Shown here: positions 1 to 6,100 of the stretch, one piece after another
Numbering within the stretch: the stretch's first letter is position 1
Layout: every line of letters begins with the position of its first letter
Assembly: GCA_011390435.1 (NCBI GenBank)
Contig: JAABSK010000175.1
Span: forward strand, 1-6,100
DNA length: 6,100 nt
Direction of reading: 5' to 3'
Source: Desulfobacteraceae bacterium
GTDB taxonomy: Bacteria > Desulfobacterota > Desulfobacteria > Desulfobacterales > Desulfobacteraceae
Translations under genes and position numbers: made by a program
Notes under the pieces: generated by a model
Told to the model about the DNA's origin: nothing
The model's input: only the letters and a program-made list of their open reading frames with translations
The model's database searches: none

Positions 1-1415
1 CCCCACCACACCCCTGCCTGATAGGAAAGCTGCTCCAGTGAAAAGAAGAAAAGAAAGGGTATGGGGTTCATGCAGGCTTTTTTTATGCAATATTCAGCAA
101 CACCCGCTGTCAGGTGCATACAAATAATAACAGCAGTCAACTTGGGGAAAAATGGCAGAAGCAGAAGGCCTGGTATCAGATAGTACCGGGATACAAAGCT
201 GGACAAGTGATATGCAAAGCTGAGATAACTGCGGATTACAGCCTGGCAGATTGTGACAAAACTGATAGGTACCTTCCTTTTTTGCAGTTTTGAGTACCGG
301 TTCACCGTGTCTGATGCAAAGATGACGGTACACAGGATGAATACGGAAATGGATTTAAAAAATAGAGATAAGCACAGAAGCGACCAGAAAAATGATTCAT
401 GGGGCGGAAGGAACAGCTTTTTTATCCTGTCGGGGTGGCGTTTTTGCAGCAAAGGTTCAGACGTTCCGTAATCAAACCGCCGGGAACAGAAGGTAAACGG
501 ACGGTTCCTGTGTTTGTGAAATACCCGGCCGACTGGCCTGTATTCCAGCATTGCTCCGCTATCTTGTAACCGCCAGCAGAAATCCACATCCTCCCCTACA
601 TGAAGTTCTTCCCGGAGACCATCCAATTTGAAGAACAGCTCACGTCTTACCAGGAAATTACAGAAGGGCAGGTAGAAAAATCGCTCCTTTTTTGTAGATC
701 TTTTATACCAGGAAGCGATTTTTAGAGCAGACCTGGCTGTTTCATACTGATCCAGGCTTTTTTTATTATAATATGAGTCCACTAATCCGCCCATGGCGCC
801 AAGGGATTTGTCCCGGAATGCCGGGACAAGTTCCCTGAGCCAGGAGGGATCTGCTGTACAATCGGAATCTATGAATGCGAGAATATCCCCTTTTGCAGAT
901 TCAGCCGCACGATTCCGGCAAAAGGAAACCTGGCTGTTTTCGGTGAGGGCGATGAGACCCGCTTCGGGGAAGTTTCGTACTGTTTCAGGTGTATTATCAT
1001 CTGATGCATCATCGACAACAATGATTTCTTTTTTTTGTTTTGGGTAATCAAGTTGTCCCAGTGATGTAAGGCAGGCAGATATGTCTTTGGACCTGTTTCT
1101 TACCGGTATGATAATTGAAACAAAGGGCAGGTCGTCATCCTCCATGAAAGTAAAGCCTTTTAATTCAAAAAATCCCTTGCGCGTGAGGTCGTTCAGAAAG
1201 AATTCTATCTGCCGGATACTGATTTCAGGGCAGGTTTGAGCGATATGATCAAGAAAGAGATAATCATACGTCTTAAAGCAGTTCAGTACAGGCTTCCAGA
1301 AGGGGGCGATATAAATCGCCTTAAGCGGATAGGCCAGGATAAGCACGGGTTGATCATCGGACAGAAGTTTAAACTGCACCGATGACCTCAGCCTGTATTC
1401 AGGATATCTACTCAT
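1..1415 (-). CDS. mftF: Mycofactocin-type family 2 glycosyltransferase (MftF), C-terminus just cut by window edge
   Basis: An uninterrupted frame of 471 codons runs from ATG 1415 to the left edge. Residues 1-90 form a small N-terminal domain. From about 97 comes a GT-A fold of glycosyltransferase family 2: FVSIIIPVRNR (98-108), EIIVVDDASDDNT (130-142), the metal-binding DSD in AFIDSDCTADPSW (180-192), GEDVDFCWRL (274-283) with the catalytic-type ED, and FHKHR (299-303). The C-terminal part has hydrophobic segments (about 341-367 and 411-440) and ends LEQLSYQAGVWW. The small N-terminal domain before the GT-A core, the membrane-associated C-terminus, the closing YQAGVW pattern and the length near 470 match MftF, which adds glucose units to mycofactocin. 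The FadH/OYE gene upstream supports this. The start overlaps the etfB stop by 8 bases; an in-frame ATG at 1445 would add ten residues. Neither has a clear ribosome binding site, so translation is probably coupled to etfB. If not MftF, it is another membrane-bound GT2 enzyme. Confidence 0.8.
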   Translation of the reverse strand, partial: MSRYPEYRLRSSVQFKLLSDDQPVLILAYPLKAIYIAPFWKPVLNCFKTYDYLFLDHIAQTCPEISIRQIEFFLNDLTRKGFFELKGFTFMEDDDLPFVSIIIPVRNRSKDISACLTSLGQLDYPKQKKEIIVVDDASDDNTPETVRNFPEAGLIALTENSQVSFCRNRAAESAKGDILAFIDSDCTADPSWLRELVPAFRDKSLGAMGGLVDSYYNKKSLDQYETARSALKIASWYKRSTKKERFFYLPFCNFLVRRELFFKLDGLREELHVGEDVDFCWRLQDSGAMLEYRPVGRVFHKHRNRPFTFCSRRFDYGTSEPLLQKRHPDRIKKLFLPPHESFFWSLLCLSLFFKSISVFILCTVIFASDTVNRYSKLQKRKVPISFVTICQAVIRSYLSFAYHLSSFVSRYYLIPGLLLLPFFPKLTAVIICMHLTAGVAEYCIKKACMNPIPFLFFFSLEQLSYQAGVWW

Positions 1416-2298
1416 TTTTTTTGATTTTTGATTCAATAAACTCATTTTTTTTTAAAAAGCTGATAATGCCTTCAACCTGTGATTCTGTGCTGCCGGTCAG
1501 CATTTCCCCTTTTTTTTGGACACGGCTCCCTGCCAGTAATTGGAGAATGCGGTCAAACGCATTCAGGGCGCTGTCAGGAGTCTGGATAAGACGGGGTCTC
1601 GGCTTCGGTTGAAAAATATCCTGGCAAATACTCTTTGCAGGGATTGTCTCTGCAATGATATCTGGTGTGAGGATATCATAGGCATCGGCCAGTTTTCTTT
1701 TTTCAATGGTCGGCAACCGGAGTTCTGCACCCAGATCAACGCTGAATACGGCAGGAAGGGGGGATTCTATCATCTCCCGGACCCCACGTCCTGCGCTCCT
1801 TAGTACGCTAACCATACCCGTTTCTTTATCAAATGAAAGATCTGTAATGGCCGATACAAAAGGCCATTGCAACTGCTGGGCCACAAGCGCACCAACCTGA
1901 CCGCTTGCTCTGTCCAGGGACTTTTTTCCGCAAAGAACCAGATCGGCACCAAGGGATTTTGCGGTTTGTGCGATAAGGTCAGCCTTAACCCATGGATCCG
2001 GTTGGGAAAAAGGATCTGTATCCTTGTGCTCCATAAAGTCCATCTGGTAAAGATACTCCGGTCCTGTGGCCAGACACCGCCTGAGCTGAACCTCTGAAAT
2101 CATCTCTCCCAGGGTCAGAAGGCTGACCCTGATGTTCCCGGCAATTTCTTTCACGCGTAAAGCAAGCTCTGTGGCTGCTTCATCATACGGATTGATACGG
2201 AATATAGAATCTTCAGGATTGATATACTTTGTGTCAGGATTCTTTCCGGTTCTGGCATATGTATGACAAATCTGTTTAACACAAACGATGATGTTCAT
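1408..2298 (-). CDS. etfB: Electron transfer flavoprotein beta subunit (EtfB), with C-terminal extension
   Basis: A 296-residue EtfB. Recognisable parts are the N-terminal strand with CVKQ (6-9), NPYDEAATELALRVKE (36-51), the GADLVLCGKKSLDRASGQVG segment (117-136) of the nucleotide-binding region, and GVREMIESPLPAVFSVD (172-188) followed by LRLPTIEK, where the family usually has a PRYP-like motif. EtfB binds AMP in ordinary ETFs, or a second FAD in bifurcating ones, and pairs with EtfA; I cannot decide the type by eye. The usual length is about 250-265 residues. This one continues for roughly 50 more (about 243-296), with an amphipathic helix-like stretch and a lysine-rich end in which KKNE occurs twice. 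I recall similar tails in EtfB proteins of anaerobes, but have not checked. The ATG has GAGGA 4 bases upstream. The stop overlaps the mftF start (ATGAGTAG), indicating coupled translation. etfB is separated from etfA by two genes, an unusual order. Confidence 0.94.
   Translation of the reverse strand: MNIIVCVKQICHTYARTGKNPDTKYINPEDSIFRINPYDEAATELALRVKEIAGNIRVSLLTLGEMISEVQLRRCLATGPEYLYQMDFMEHKDTDPFSQPDPWVKADLIAQTAKSLGADLVLCGKKSLDRASGQVGALVAQQLQWPFVSAITDLSFDKETGMVSVLRSAGRGVREMIESPLPAVFSVDLGAELRLPTIEKRKLADAYDILTPDIIAETIPAKSICQDIFQPKPRPRLIQTPDSALNAFDRILQLLAGSRVQKKGEMLTGSTESQVEGIISFLKKNEFIESKIKKNE
1410..1452 (-). repeat. Duplicated A-rich motif at the etfB/mftF junction
   Basis: The 13-base plus-strand sequence ACTCATTTTTTTT occurs at 1410-1422 and again at 1440-1452, exactly 30 bases apart. 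On the coding strand each copy is an A8 or A9 run followed by TGAGT. It encodes the repeated KKNE at the end of EtfB and places two ATG codons (1445 and 1415) in the mftF frame. Confidence 0.7.
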
Positions 2299-2302
2299 TT
2301 TA

Positions 2303-2307
2303 TCCTC
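2303..2307 (-). promoter_or_regulatory. Ribosome binding site of etfB
   Basis: GAGGA lies 4 bases before the etfB ATG at 2298, in the only sizeable intergenic gap of the window (2299-2362, 64 bases). I see no promoter or stable hairpin in the rest of that gap. Confidence 0.65.
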
Positions 2308-2362
2308 ATGGTAGTGTTGTGCGGTGTGTCAGGTGAATTATTACCGACTAATGGGCCATGGT

Positions 2363-4267
2363 TCATTTGATTGCCTTGGCCACAATATCGATAATATCCG
2401 CCACCTTTGGTATTTTTTCTCCCTCCAGGGATTTTACCCCGTCGTCCAGCATTATCAGACAATAGGGGCAGGCGGTTCCAATGATATCAATGTCAGCATT
2501 TGCAAGCTCTTCAGCCCGAACCACATTGATATTTTGTCCAGTGTTCTCATGGAGCCACATCCTTCCGCCGCCGCCGCCACAGCAGAAACCATTTTCTTTG
2601 CTTCGCAAAAGTTCTGTCAATTGCGTTCCGGGAACGGCTTTACAAATGTCTCTCGGGGGCTGGTACACCTCATTATACCGCCCAAGGTAGCAGGCATCGT
2701 GAACCGCTATTTTTGGCGCTACGGGATATTTTGGCGTGATCTTTTTTTCGCTGATCAGATCCATTACAAACTGGGTTGCATGAACCACCGGGATATTGCA
2801 ACCCAGTTCAGGGTACTCGTTTTTCAAAGTATTGAGGCAATGGGGACAGAGGGTAACTATTTTTTTTATCCGATGTTGCAAAAACCGGTCGATATTCTGC
2901 TTTGCAAGGGTTTGGTACAGCATCTCATCCCCTAGTCTTCTGGCCGGGTCTCCACAGCAGAGTTCCTCTTGGGCCAGAATGCCGAAACTGATGCCGGCAG
3001 CGTTCAGGATTTTGGTAAATGCCTGTGCGGTTTCTTTGTTCCGGGGATGGAAAGCACCTGAACAGCCGACCCAGAACAGAACCTCGGCATCTTCAACACT
3101 GCTTATCTGTGGAACATCCCGGTGCATGGCCCAGTCTGCCCGATGAGCCGCGCCTTTACCCTGGACATCACCATAAAGCTCAAGATCCCGAATCATGGGG
3201 CGTGCCTCGGCCGGCAGATTGCCTTTCCCCATTACCTGGTAACGCCGTATGTCCACTATTTTGTCCATTGCTTCGACAAATACAGGGCAATGCTCTACAC
3301 AAGCCATGCATGTGGTGCAGGCCCAGATCTCGTCGTTGGATATGATGTCTTCAAGAAGAGACTGTGCTGAAGGTTTAAACAAACGGCTTTGACAACCAGC
3401 CGCAGTTTGGGCCTGTTCAAGAATCTTTCGGATAACCTTTCTCGGAGACAGGGGTTTTCCGGAGATTGCAGCCGGGCAATTCTCTTCACACCTGCCGCAG
3501 GATACACAGCTTTCAGTTTCAAGTAATTGTTTCCAGGAAAAATCTTCTGCTGTTTTAGCACCGATTTCACCCGTTTCCAGTGTAATCTGTCTCAAAGCTG
3601 CCCTGGGGCCTTGTTTTTTATAGAAAATATTCAGGGGAGCGGTTGCCAGGTGGCGCATAAAGGTAAAAGGAATAACAGCAATAAAAAGCAGTACGGCAAA
3701 AAAATGGAGACGGATCATACACTGCAAGAACAAAGGCGAAGAAGGTATGCCAAAGGACATTATCCAGCCGATTGGAGACGCCCAAGCAGCGTTAGTTCCG
3801 GTTATGCTCAGGCGTGATGCTTCGGCCAGGAAACCTGACACCAGAATAATCAGCAGGATGAACATGGGAATAATCGTTCGTTCAGGGCCATCGGTTTCCC
3901 CTGACTGAATCCGGCGAAAGAATAGATACAGGATACCTGCCAGCATGGCTATTCCTATCGTGTCTTGTAAAAGCGATAAAACAAGGGCCGGAGCATCGGG
4001 TATGGAAAAACCGAACTGTGCAGCGATAATGATCGCAAGGGGAAGAAAAAAGCCCCAGAATACAGCCATATGGGCTGTGCCCAGGGCGGGACGTTTGCGG
4101 ATTTCAGTGTGTTTGACAAGATAGTGGATTACCCTGCGTAAGCTTCCGGAAAATTTTTTGTCTTTTTTCTTTTTCCATAAGGCCCAGCGCCGGGAAACGC
4201 CGTTTATCATGATGATGAAGGCAGTAATGATGAGTAATGTATCAAATGATGTTATTAAAGGTTTCAA
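2363..4267 (-). CDS. EtfD-like membrane iron-sulfur oxidoreductase (NarI-like cytochrome b domain, two 4Fe-4S clusters, two CCG domains)
   Basis: A 634-residue protein (646 if the TTG at 4303 is used). Counting from 4267, about residues 5-210 hold five membrane helices like nitrate reductase gamma (NarI), with H66, H188 and H206 as possible heme b ligands. Two 4Fe-4S motifs follow: CVSCGRCEENCP (254-265) and CTTCMACVEHCP (317-328). The C-terminal half has two heterodisulfide-reductase-type CCG domains fitting CX(31-39)CCX(35-36)CxxC: C402, C437/C438, C474/C477, and C526, C562/C563, C600/C603. This architecture is that of EtfD, the ETF:(methyl)menaquinone oxidoreductase of mycobacteria and syntrophs, which takes electrons from EtfAB and reduces membrane quinone. 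Its place between etfA and etfB supports that role. The shorter start is preferred for its AAGAG motif, and because the basic KIIKAKK stretch of the longer form would sit on the same side as the predicted periplasmic N-terminus; KKKK after helix 1 marks the cytoplasmic side. Confidence 0.9.
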   Translation of the reverse strand: MKPLITSFDTLLIITAFIIMINGVSRRWALWKKKKDKKFSGSLRRVIHYLVKHTEIRKRPALGTAHMAVFWGFFLPLAIIIAAQFGFSIPDAPALVLSLLQDTIGIAMLAGILYLFFRRIQSGETDGPERTIIPMFILLIILVSGFLAEASRLSITGTNAAWASPIGWIMSFGIPSSPLFLQCMIRLHFFAVLLFIAVIPFTFMRHLATAPLNIFYKKQGPRAALRQITLETGEIGAKTAEDFSWKQLLETESCVSCGRCEENCPAAISGKPLSPRKVIRKILEQAQTAAGCQSRLFKPSAQSLLEDIISNDEIWACTTCMACVEHCPVFVEAMDKIVDIRRYQVMGKGNLPAEARPMIRDLELYGDVQGKGAAHRADWAMHRDVPQISSVEDAEVLFWVGCSGAFHPRNKETAQAFTKILNAAGISFGILAQEELCCGDPARRLGDEMLYQTLAKQNIDRFLQHRIKKIVTLCPHCLNTLKNEYPELGCNIPVVHATQFVMDLISEKKITPKYPVAPKIAVHDACYLGRYNEVYQPPRDICKAVPGTQLTELLRSKENGFCCGGGGGRMWLHENTGQNINVVRAEELANADIDIIGTACPYCLIMLDDGVKSLEGEKIPKVADIIDIVAKAIK

Positions 4268-4274
4268 GGCGTAT

Positions 4275-4279
4275 CTCTT
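4275..4279 (-). promoter_or_regulatory. Probable ribosome binding site of the EtfD-like gene, deciding its start
   Basis: AAGAG lies 7 bases before a TTG at 4265-4267 and just after the TAA of the cytochrome gene (4281-4283). The alternative in-frame TTG at 4303 has no purine-rich motif at a suitable distance, so this weak site favours the shorter protein. Confidence 0.45.
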
Positions 4280-4280
4280 T

Positions 4281-4940
4281 TTAGCTTTTATTATTTTTAC
4301 CAAGGAAATCGTTAAAAACAGGCATCAGGAACCGTCCAAATAATGCAACCAGGATAAATATGGAAAAACAGGTCTGCATAAGGATAACAGCTACTGTTTT
4401 GTCCTTTGTCTCCGGGTGCATATATCCCCACATGGCAGCTTTGAGATTTGGATCATGGCATTTGTAACAGTCCTGCTCGTTTATCGGCTCTGTCTCGCCA
4501 TGGGCTCCTGTTCCCTGGTGGCATCCCAGGCAGTTATCCATTTTATAATTGGTTGAGAAATTTGCTTTTTTGTGGGAGGCTATCCGGGAAGATGAAAAAA
4601 TTGAAAACAGACCGGTTTTGCCGGTTTCCATTTCATGACACCCGCTGCAATTCACCCGGGCAACACCTTCGCCGCTCATATGGTCTTCACCGGTTATCCC
4701 TGTATGGCATTCCAGGCAGGTGACGGACCGGCCGTGAGCGGAATCGTCAAAATTTTCAATCGAAATCTGAAGAAAGCTTTCACCACTTCCTGAGCTGTGA
4801 CATTCCATACAATCATCTGCCGTGTATCCTTGAGCATCCTGGGAAGCAGTTGCCAGGGCAAAGATTCCAGTCAAAAAGAACAGTCCAAAAAAACAATATC
4901 CAATCATAGGCAGTTTTATAGGCAGTTTTCTATTTTTCAT
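4281..4940 (-). CDS. Membrane-anchored pentaheme c-type cytochrome
   Basis: A 219-residue protein with five CxxCH heme c sites: CMECH (44-48), CLECH (75-79), CSGCH (98-102), CLGCH (137-141) and CYKCH (158-162). The N-terminus has basic residues, a hydrophobic stretch (about 11-32) and a plausible cleavage site after ATA at 30-32, so the heme domain should be exported to the periplasm. A second hydrophobic segment (about 182-209) anchors the C-terminus in the membrane. The protein has exactly ten histidines: five in the CxxCH motifs and five others (69, 87, 123, 147, 175), the number needed for five bis-histidine hemes. It overlaps etfA by 11 bases and ends 13 bases before the likely start of the EtfD-like gene. 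Its partner is therefore probably that NarI-like membrane protein, by analogy with other cytochrome b/cytochrome c modules. I cannot place it in a named cytochrome family; role as electron acceptor or donor at the periplasmic face is inferred. Confidence 0.9.
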   Translation of the reverse strand: MKNRKLPIKLPMIGYCFFGLFFLTGIFALATASQDAQGYTADDCMECHSSGSGESFLQISIENFDDSAHGRSVTCLECHTGITGEDHMSGEGVARVNCSGCHEMETGKTGLFSIFSSSRIASHKKANFSTNYKMDNCLGCHQGTGAHGETEPINEQDCYKCHDPNLKAAMWGYMHPETKDKTVAVILMQTCFSIFILVALFGRFLMPVFNDFLGKNNKS

Positions 4941-5928
4941 TTTGTAGTTCCTTTATCTGCGCTATCAACAGCGGAAGGATTTCATGGATATCACCGACCA
5001 CTCCCAGGTCGGCAAATCTGAAAATTCTTGCCTTTGGGTTCTGGTCAATGGCTATTATCCACTGTGATTTTTCGATTCCGGCAGTGTATTCATTGGCACC
5101 GGAAATACCGCAGTTTATAATCAGCCGGGAAGCAACGGTTTTGCCGGTCTGGCCGATCTGCCTTTCATAGGGCAGGGTTCCCCAGTCAATAATGGGGCGG
5201 GTTGCTCCTACGGTTCCGCCGATGGCCCGGGCCAGCCGGTGAATAATATCGAATGCTTCATCCTTTCCCGCACCCCGGCCCCCGGCCACTACAATATCAG
5301 CCTCTTCCAGGTCCAAATGTTCAGGATCAGCCTTAATGATTTTTGTTGTCTTTGTTTTGAGGGCATCTGTTGAAATCTCCGGTGCCAGTGTCATTACTGT
5401 GGCACCTGTTTTTTTATCCGGTTGTGTATCAAACAGCACAGCCGGCAAAAAAGAAACCACAGGCAAAACTTCCTTCGCAAGTATGATCTCCTCGAACAGA
5501 TACCCGTTTGCAAGAGGACGAACGGCTCTTGCCCCTGAAGCCGAATCCATGTGAAAATCCATTGCACGTGTCACAAGATTTGCTTTCAAAAGAGCAGCTA
5601 CACGAGGCAAGAGATCATCAACCTCGGCAGTCTGGGCCGCAAGCAGACAGGTCGGTGCTTCTTTTCTAACTGCATTGAACAATACATGGGAAAAGTATTC
5701 TCCCTGATAATGCTTCATTTGGTCTCCGGTTATATTCAGAACCCGGCTTACGCCATAGGAGCCCAGAGCTGTCAGTTCCGCCTTTGAAACAGCTCCAAAA
5801 GCAACGGCAGTCACGATGCCGTCTCCCCCAAGTTCGGTGATCAACCGTCGGGCTTCAGCCGTCAGGCCGAAGGTAGGCGCTTCAATGCTTCCTTCTCGTT
5901 GTTGGACCAGTATCCAGATGTCAAACAT
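4930..5928 (-). CDS. etfA: Electron transfer flavoprotein alpha subunit (EtfA)
   Basis: A 332-residue protein of normal EtfA length. Residues 1 to about 195 form the N-terminal alpha/beta domain. Residues from about 209 are the FAD-binding domain, with VVAGGRGAG (213-221), GATRP (241-245), RQIGQTGKT (256-264), GISGANEY (274-281) and ADLGVVGDIHEILP (306-319). EtfA carries the redox-active FAD of the EtfAB heterodimer, which takes electrons from flavoprotein dehydrogenases and delivers them to a membrane quinone reductase. Here that reductase is probably the EtfD-like protein two genes downstream. The start is an ATG with AGGAG 5 bases upstream. The TAG stop overlaps the start of the cytochrome gene by 11 bases. 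Two points are unusual: etfB is not adjacent but follows two other genes, and the flavin-site motif usually written GISGA-QH is NEY here, so the conserved histidine is replaced by tyrosine. No signal peptide is seen, so it should be cytoplasmic. Confidence 0.95.
   Translation of the reverse strand: MFDIWILVQQREGSIEAPTFGLTAEARRLITELGGDGIVTAVAFGAVSKAELTALGSYGVSRVLNITGDQMKHYQGEYFSHVLFNAVRKEAPTCLLAAQTAEVDDLLPRVAALLKANLVTRAMDFHMDSASGARAVRPLANGYLFEEIILAKEVLPVVSFLPAVLFDTQPDKKTGATVMTLAPEISTDALKTKTTKIIKADPEHLDLEEADIVVAGGRGAGKDEAFDIIHRLARAIGGTVGATRPIIDWGTLPYERQIGQTGKTVASRLIINCGISGANEYTAGIEKSQWIIAIDQNPKARIFRFADLGVVGDIHEILPLLIAQIKELQNEK
4949..4953 (-). promoter_or_regulatory. Ribosome binding site of the pentaheme cytochrome gene
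   Basis: AAGGA lies 8 bases before the cytochrome ATG, inside the last codons of etfA. It supports the ATG at 4940, which overlaps the etfA stop and is followed by a recognisable signal sequence. Confidence 0.6.
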
Positions 5929-5933
5929 GGGCT

Positions 5934-5938
5934 CTCCT
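5934..5938 (-). promoter_or_regulatory. Ribosome binding site of etfA
   Basis: An AGGAG motif lies 5 bases before the etfA ATG and overlaps the TAG stop of the upstream oxidoreductase gene. It fixes the etfA start and suggests translational coupling of the two genes. Confidence 0.75.
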
Positions 5939-6100
5939 ATATCCTTCTTCCGATACGATGGCCTTCAATAATGGCCATGTCGGTTTTTCTCGGGGCCACA
6001 CAGTCGCCAACCCGGTATATTTCTTTAACCTTGCCCTTAAGCGCAAAGTAAAGACTGTCTTCTGCTACATTACCGGCTGCAAGGACTACGGTATCATATC
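5937..6100 (-). CDS. C-terminal end of a FadH/Old Yellow Enzyme family flavin/iron-sulfur oxidoreductase (5' end outside window)
   Basis: Only the last 53 residues are visible, ending at a TAG at 5937-5939. They read YDTVVLAAGN, then a stretch with YRVGDCVAPRKTDMAI and a final EGHRIGRRI. The hydrophobic strand ending in AAGN and the later VGDC are the closing part of the Rossmann-like NAD(P)H/FAD domain found at the C-terminus of 2,4-dienoyl-CoA reductase (FadH) and related OYE enzymes; the aspartate of GDC normally contacts the flavin. The GDCVAPR followed by an A-I-EG-R-GR tail is what I recall from the FadH/OYE proteins that accompany mycofactocin clusters, which fits the MftF-like gene further downstream. 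Such enzymes use an N-terminal FMN/4Fe-4S TIM barrel plus this FAD domain to pass hydride to unsaturated substrates; that part lies outside the window. The stop is 8 bases from the etfA start, so the two are probably co-transcribed. The fold family is well supported, the mycofactocin subclass only moderately. Confidence 0.8.
   Translation of the reverse strand, partial: YDTVVLAAGNVAEDSLYFALKGKVKEIYRVGDCVAPRKTDMAIIEGHRIGRRI

Follow-up and report, generated by a model that had tools for sequence, protein, structure and literature searches.

Genes for an electron transfer flavoprotein, an EtfD-like protein and a pentaheme cytochrome beside mycofactocin genes in Desulfobacteraceae: a candidate route from mycofactocin to the quinone pool

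How does an anaerobe without MftG return the electrons of reduced mycofactocin to its respiratory chain? In mycobacteria this job has been proposed for MftG, a GMC-type mycofactocin dehydrogenase, which is reported to be absent from about 25% of the genomes with MftC and whose replacement there is left open in that report (eLife 2025). The question is raised by a 6,100-nucleotide stretch of contig JAABSK010000175.1 (assembly GCA_011390435.1, Desulfobacteraceae bacterium), referred to here as the window, in which genes for an electron transfer flavoprotein (ETF), an EtfD-like ETF:menaquinone oxidoreductase and a pentaheme cytochrome lie between the mycofactocin genes OYE2 and mftF. The window is best read as one half of a mycofactocin regulon, the half for redox output, in Desulfobacterota close to Desulfonema. 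None of mftA, mftB and mftC lies within the 6,100 nucleotides; we call the window a mycofactocin operon because of its MftF, its OYE2 tail and the genomes of its relatives. It contains the following features.

5940..6098, minus strand: C-terminal 53 residues of OYE2 (FadH/OYE family), the remainder lying outside the window; tail match to TIGR03997
4930..5928, minus strand: etfA, ETF alpha subunit, 332 amino acids; ETF and ETF_alpha domains (Pfam)
4281..4940, minus strand: pentaheme c-type cytochrome, 219 amino acids; five CXXCH motifs and hydrophobic segments close to both ends
2363..4303, minus strand: etfD-like ETF:menaquinone oxidoreductase, 646 amino acids from TTG 4303; match to M. smegmatis EtfD (9ojn)
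1408..2298, minus strand: etfB, ETF beta subunit, 296 amino acids; ETF domain (Pfam)
3..1445, minus strand: mftF, mycofactocin glycosyltransferase, cut by the low end of the window; TIGR03965 and GT2 domain

The minus-strand order is thus OYE2 C-terminus, EtfA, pentaheme cytochrome, EtfD, EtfB and MftF. The OYE2 stop codon occupies 5937–5939, and the intergenic gaps given by the open reading frame calls are, in the same order, 8, −11, −23, 64 and −38 bases, so that the packing is tight. All six genes that a preliminary description of this DNA had placed in one tightly packed minus-strand operon are therefore present, with gaps of −38 to 64 bases. The true start of EtfD is probably TTG 4267, because this start gives the 634 amino acids of its closest relatives; the gap to the cytochrome would then be 13 bases.

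The MftF of the window passes the cut-off of NCBIfam model TIGR03965 (296.1 versus 280 bits), as expected from the preliminary description of an MftF-type glycosyltransferase. The OYE tail matches TIGR03997 (mycofact_OYE_2) with 65.4 bits over profile positions 593–645 of 645, the sole NCBIfam family found at E ≤ 0.01, and shares 88.7% identity with the corresponding end of the OYE2b of Desulfonema limicola, a full-length protein that scores 889 against a cut-off of 793; the FadH/OYE C-terminus described earlier thus belongs to a mycofactocin-type family. Homologues of OYE2b include dienoyl-CoA reductase, trimethylamine dehydrogenase (TMADH) and histamine dehydrogenase. Its alignment with TMADH spans 535 residues and brings four cysteines into register. 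TMADH and ETF chains share the solved entry 1o94, which gives the OYE2-to-ETF step a structural precedent. Like OYE2, TMADH is an OYE-type enzyme with flavin mononucleotide (FMN) and a 4Fe–4S cluster that pairs with an ETF; it differs in its substrate and in one cysteine, which we take to be the FMN-linking residue. OYE2b has a non-cysteine residue at that position, where the aligned chain 1djq shows Ala.

Linkage to mft genes was read in the genomes of relatives and not on the window's own contig. MftC was found in 16 of the 194 genomes sampled from the order at our threshold of E ≤ 1e-50 (15 above the TIGR03962 cut-off), and 11 of these 16 (G001, G052, G055, G094, G097, G101, G118, G142, G146, G160 and G168) hold the ETF module, whole or in part. 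The clearest case is G052, in which mftA, mftB, mftC, OYE2a, OYE2b, etfA, the cytochrome gene, etfD, etfB and mftF form a single same-strand cluster. The same cluster occurs in G458 and G396, in G275 as far as the fetched sequence goes (it stops within mftF), and in G101 until the contig ends after the cytochrome. Some clusters contain extra genes: OYE2b is followed by a GlpC-like gene in G052 and G275, and mftF is preceded by a radical SAM gene in G396 and by a short-chain dehydrogenase/reductase (SDR) gene in G275. Upstream of mftA in G052 and G275 lie ADH, AOR and acyl-CoA ligase-like genes, so the cluster suits alcohol oxidation. D. limicola (G118), the closest complete relative, has MftC (TIGR03962, 374.9 versus a cut-off of 265), MftB (45.5 versus 33), a mycofactocin-coupled SDR (NF040490, 542.7 versus 385) and an mftA that could be read directly. 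The search for mftA, mftB, mftC and a mycofactocin SDR that the preliminary description had proposed was therefore positive in relatives, both in D. limicola and in G052, where mftABC accompany ETF and EtfD. For seven further MftC genomes with the module, the two halves are on different contigs; in one of them (G097) the contig with mftABC also carries both OYE2 genes. A Desulfobacteraceae metagenome-assembled genome (MAG; L001) has the gene order of the window and an EtfD 91 to 95% identical to the window's. Beyond the module it encodes homologues of a D. limicola protein of the nickel-responsive family PF14026, of an iron alcohol dehydrogenase-like protein and of a sensor kinase, and another of its contigs carries SDR, mftA, mftB, mftC, larE, larB and larC. 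Frame breaks, which may be assembly errors, divide the EtfD, MftF and MftC genes of this MAG (L001 and L029).

A wider sample of the phylum (395 genomes, 17 with MftC above the cut-off) showed two alternatives for the genes between etfA and etfB. Thirteen of the 17 genomes have ETF genes within the same fetched stretch as mft genes, and G097, with its ETF genes on another contig, makes a fourteenth; none were seen in G304 and G332, which have short contigs, or in the 20 kb read for G560. The slot between etfA and etfB (after etfA at the contig end in G240 and G438) holds the cytochrome and EtfD in five of the 13 (G240, G396, G458, G438 and G275) and FixC and FixX in the other eight (G445, G507, G410, G524, G469, G215, G219 and G488). 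The FixC of G445 matches FixC-family models, with scores below their cut-offs, and has a weak match to the ETF-QO ubiquinone-binding model (25.3 versus 27.7); the other seven were identified by their similarity to it (50–52% identity). Since EtfD plus cytochrome and FixC plus FixX alternate in one slot, quinone looks like the common destination of both types of module. The window thus resembles the EtfABCX/FixABCX systems in combining an ETF with a quinone-directed partner, and differs from them in having EtfD and a cytochrome as that partner. Two loci with MftC-like proteins below the cut-off (L116 and L117, 216 and 215 bits) were excluded from the mft counts as no MftB was seen there.

The EtfD of the window has two CCG stretches, Fer4 domains and a Nitrate_red_gam domain (Pfam), and matches M. 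smegmatis EtfD (9ojn) with E = 2.5e-101. The His pair of heme b and the Fe–S ligands of the four cluster sites, as named for the M. smegmatis protein, are all kept, and we predict that the window protein, too, probably reduces menaquinone with ETF. The two proteins have in common a membrane heme b, two Fer4 and two CCG domains; the window EtfD differs in its neighbours (mft genes and a pentaheme cytochrome) and in one residue, Cys450, which occupies the place of Thr539 in M. smegmatis. Thr539 is described as standing for a cysteine of Hdr, hence the linear 3Fe–4S cluster of the mycobacterial protein (EMBO J 2026). With Cys450 at this place, a noncubane cluster like that of Hdr is to be expected in the window EtfD. 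The solved chains nearest in sequence to EtfA are 5ol2, 6fah, 7qh2, 7koe and 4kpu. Those nearest to EtfB are 6fah, 4kpu and 5ol2, followed by the TMADH partner ETF (1o94), all EtfB matches being weak (63 bits).

The pentaheme cytochrome of the preliminary description is borne out by five CXXCH motifs and by five further His residues that are invariant in 30 aligned cytochromes (the window protein and 29 of its 36 database relatives). These ten elements suit five bis-His hemes and a protein that would serve in electron transfer only. Hydropathy peaks near residues 10–34 and 180–210. At other loci the number of CXXCH motifs per cytochrome is five or seven. Among solved structures the best match is the high-molecular-weight cytochrome c 1gws (E = 0.0015), and none was a close relative.

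The association is also visible in the distribution of the genes among the 194 genomes. EtfD is present in 12 at E ≤ 1e-150 and accompanies MftC in nine (Fisher p = 2.6e-9); at E ≤ 1e-130, the limit set in the search, it is present in 16, again with MftC in nine (p = 1.2e-7), where the stricter cut was picked after inspection of the list, kinship is uncontrolled and only the best candidates per genome are counted. OYE2 scores above its cut-off (793) in 12 genomes, nine of them MftC-positive, and in none of the five MftC-positive genomes in which the ETF module was not found. A tree of 27 EtfD rows places the 17 module-type rows on one side of a branch and ten paralogues on the other, with support of 94/95; three of the 17 (from G007, G165 and G039, which have no MftC match) were labelled by gene order, a 247-residue piece from G240 was dropped as too short, and several long branches were flagged by the program.

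We collected GMC_oxred_C matches from 19 genomes and scored them with MftG models (cut-offs 300 to 400). There are 15 matches in 11 of the genomes and none in the other eight, D. limicola included; in these 19 genomes, mostly drafts of unstated completeness, none of the 15 was recognised as MftG at its cut-off. The GMC proteins of G023 and G122 and one of those of G165 exceed the choline dehydrogenase cut-off, a partial protein of G146 fits choline dehydrogenase best, and those of G102 and G052 are cholesterol-oxidase-like. None of the remaining nine exceeds 52 bits (versus 400) with an MftG model, and for two of these nine an MftG model is the best match (G146, 51 bits; G055, 27 bits).

The gene identities, the kept cofactor ligands, the mft linkage and the alternation of EtfD plus cytochrome with FixCX in one slot are established. 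On this basis we regard as probable, with appreciable room for doubt, a route that leads from mycofactocinol over OYE2, ETF and EtfD to menaquinone, with the cytochrome as a periplasmic branch and the module in MftG's place. Mycofactocin-dependent nicotinoprotein dehydrogenases, encoded elsewhere in the regulon, would oxidise alcohols and so generate the reduced form of mycofactocin. OYE2, which with its FMN, 4Fe–4S cluster and nucleotide-binding domain is built like the ETF donor TMADH, would re-oxidise this cofactor and reduce EtfAB, acting as a mycofactocinol:ETF oxidoreductase. From the ETF the electrons would pass into EtfD, through its Fe–S chain and heme b, to menaquinone, and the membrane-anchored pentaheme cytochrome may provide a second, periplasmic link to the cytochrome c pool. 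The module would in this way take the place of the mycobacterial MftG, which has the same proposed job of draining reduced mycofactocin into the respiratory chain; where MftG is one protein, three or more would be engaged here (OYE2, ETF and EtfD or FixCX). A drain from mycofactocin through ETF and EtfD to the quinone pool had been put forward in the preliminary description; the mft linkage and the swap for FixC and FixX support it, and the direction of the electrons is one that we infer.

The ETF and EtfD could instead serve the oxidation of acyl-CoA (from fatty or branched acids), with the mft genes as neighbours through co-induction with alcohols that end as acyl-CoA. The homology of the window EtfD to the EtfD of mycobacterial β-oxidation, the acyl-CoA ligase-like genes in the G052 and G275 clusters and the occurrence of ETF/EtfD paralogues in other contexts would all fit. 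However, those genes of the D. limicola and G052 clusters that were scanned or matched, which do not comprise every neighbour, include no acyl-CoA dehydrogenase, the ETF set sits between OYE2 and mftF, and the module EtfD is separate from the paralogues in the tree, so we consider this explanation unlikely. Very unlikely, in our judgement, is a bifurcating ETF with which mycofactocinol (or NADH) reduces both menaquinone, via EtfD or FixCX, and ferredoxin. The solved chains nearest in sequence, five for EtfA and three for EtfB, belong to kinds described as bifurcating, and FixCX holds the same slot in eight genomes. The reported potential of mycofactocin (−255 mV) is also near the mean of those of ferredoxin (−450 mV) and menaquinone (−74 mV); such a reaction would nevertheless break even at best, and the EtfB matches are the weak ones given above, with the TMADH partner ETF in fourth place.

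The same potentials bear on a reversed flow, in which quinol or a periplasmic cytochrome would feed the ETF and OYE2 for the reduction of mycofactocin or an enone substrate. The step from a cofactor at −255 mV to a quinone at −74 mV is downhill, and the alcohol dehydrogenase-like and AOR genes of the clusters suit oxidation; the resemblance of OYE2 to dienoyl-CoA and bile-acid enoate reductases and the multiheme cytochrome as a possible entry point speak for this explanation, to which we give the least probability of the three.

Several observations weigh against the route from mycofactocinol to menaquinone. The ETF module was not found in five of the 16 MftC genomes (G023, G044, G102, G113 and G122, in which FixCX-type ETF was not searched), and so is not indispensable. 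Conversely, G007, G165 and G039 have the module without an MftC match at E ≤ 1e-50, and G152 has an OYE2 above the cut-off (C1:955616-957460) with neither MftC nor a module-type EtfD match. The window EtfA and EtfB resemble the mycofactocin-associated ETF of NCBIfam in being alpha and beta subunits encoded with mycofactocin genes; unlike members of those families, they score under both cut-offs (NF038209 mft_etfA, 119.8 versus 240 bits; TIGR04503 mft_etfB, 77.6 versus 200 bits). In D. limicola about 31 kb separate mftABC from mftF, all on the same chromosome and strand; in G055 the distance between mftABC and the module is about 2.6 Mb. The preliminary description had allowed about 15 kb for mft genes, a distance exceeded in D. 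limicola; mftF remains beside the ETF genes there despite the split of the regulon. A second EtfA–cytochrome–EtfD–EtfB set in G055 (L118) has no mft reference gene in the 9 kb read, and its EtfD is the paralogue nearest to the module EtfD in the tree. Lastly, with GMC pieces of 81 and 97 amino acids and with draft genomes, MftG may have been overlooked in some of the organisms.

Dedicated pairs of ETF and ETF:quinone oxidoreductase encoded inside pathway modules have been described for Desulfobacteraceae, and the association of mycofactocin with ETF is already named in NCBIfam ('mycofactocin-associated ETF alpha/beta') and so is not wholly new. For the EtfD and multiheme exit, its alternation with FixCX and a likely role in place of MftG, no earlier description was found in the full-text literature searched, outside which subscription papers mostly fall; nor did any paper there treat mycofactocin together with ETF or with the nickel-pincer nucleotide. 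The module would join a peptide-derived cofactor to anaerobic respiration, occurs in a named species with a complete genome, D. limicola, and offers a concrete, testable candidate for MftG's job in anaerobes without MftG.

The biosynthetic genes of the relatives also vary. All 34 mftABC loci of the relatives have one MftA peptide each, 21 ending in CGVY and 13 in CGIY, the latter including the window's closest relatives G001 and G118 (CGIY loci include L029:1977-2138, L030, L042, L103 and L105). The CGVY end is given as invariant in Haft 2011, and the VY end anticipated in the preliminary description holds for the 21 loci and not for the 13. A CGIY peptide would give a different mycofactocin core. 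All 13 CGIY peptides are in clusters with SDR3 and, contig permitting, with Lar or DUF362 genes; the reverse fails, as G102, G410, G215 and G488 have SDR3 with CGVY. G240 has one cluster of each kind. No MftE scored above its cut-off of 172 in the 16 MftC genomes (best 170 bits in G055, 162 in G168 and 160 in G052, with no match in D. limicola), and the mftE named in the preliminary description was thus not recovered. Nor did any MftD score above 470.85 in these 16 genomes (best 174 bits; D. limicola 116). Neither protein is described as universal (Haft 2011).

Twelve of the 16 MftC genomes of the order carry Lar genes in the stretch that holds mftC, and DUF362 genes lie upstream, contig permitting. 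In D. limicola larE, larB and larC, for nickel-pincer nucleotide synthesis, directly follow mftC (L042:7005-9908; LarB, 290.5 versus 175; LarE, 317 versus 150; LarC by PF01969). Pfam places DUF362 and the LarA domain in one clan, which makes the DUF362 proteins candidate nickel-pincer enzymes. It is possible, although we hold it to be somewhat doubtful, that Desulfobacterota, sulfate reducers included, have a distinct anaerobic branch of mycofactocin. It would in many cases have an Ile–Tyr rather than a Val–Tyr core (an ethyl/methyl homologue), would lack recognisable MftD and MftE, and would be tied to nickel-pincer synthesis (LarBCE and DUF362 proteins) and to re-oxidation by OYE2 and ETF, with an exchangeable membrane exit (EtfD and multiheme cytochrome, or FixCX) replacing MftG.

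Some further genes lie in or beside the clusters. Between etfB and mftF of D. limicola there are short pieces 83–89% identical to mftF (L046:5916-6053 and 7383-7487), as from an insertion or duplication. Two more radical SAM proteins adjoin mftF (L056:3433-5750 and L049:12527-16104); for the one at L056:3433-4572 the best model is MftC, far under the cut-off (113 versus 265), and the other has a SPASM domain. In G165 the ETF module adjoins genes for ErcA, a PAS kinase, NtrC, DUF362 proteins and MrpORP, where the contig ends; the same genes adjoin SDR–mftABC in other genomes. An ErcA-like iron alcohol dehydrogenase (L045:15090-16250; 462.6, below the cut-off of 550) is, with its neighbouring PAS kinase and NtrC regulator, often found beside the cluster, which suggests alcohol-sensing control.

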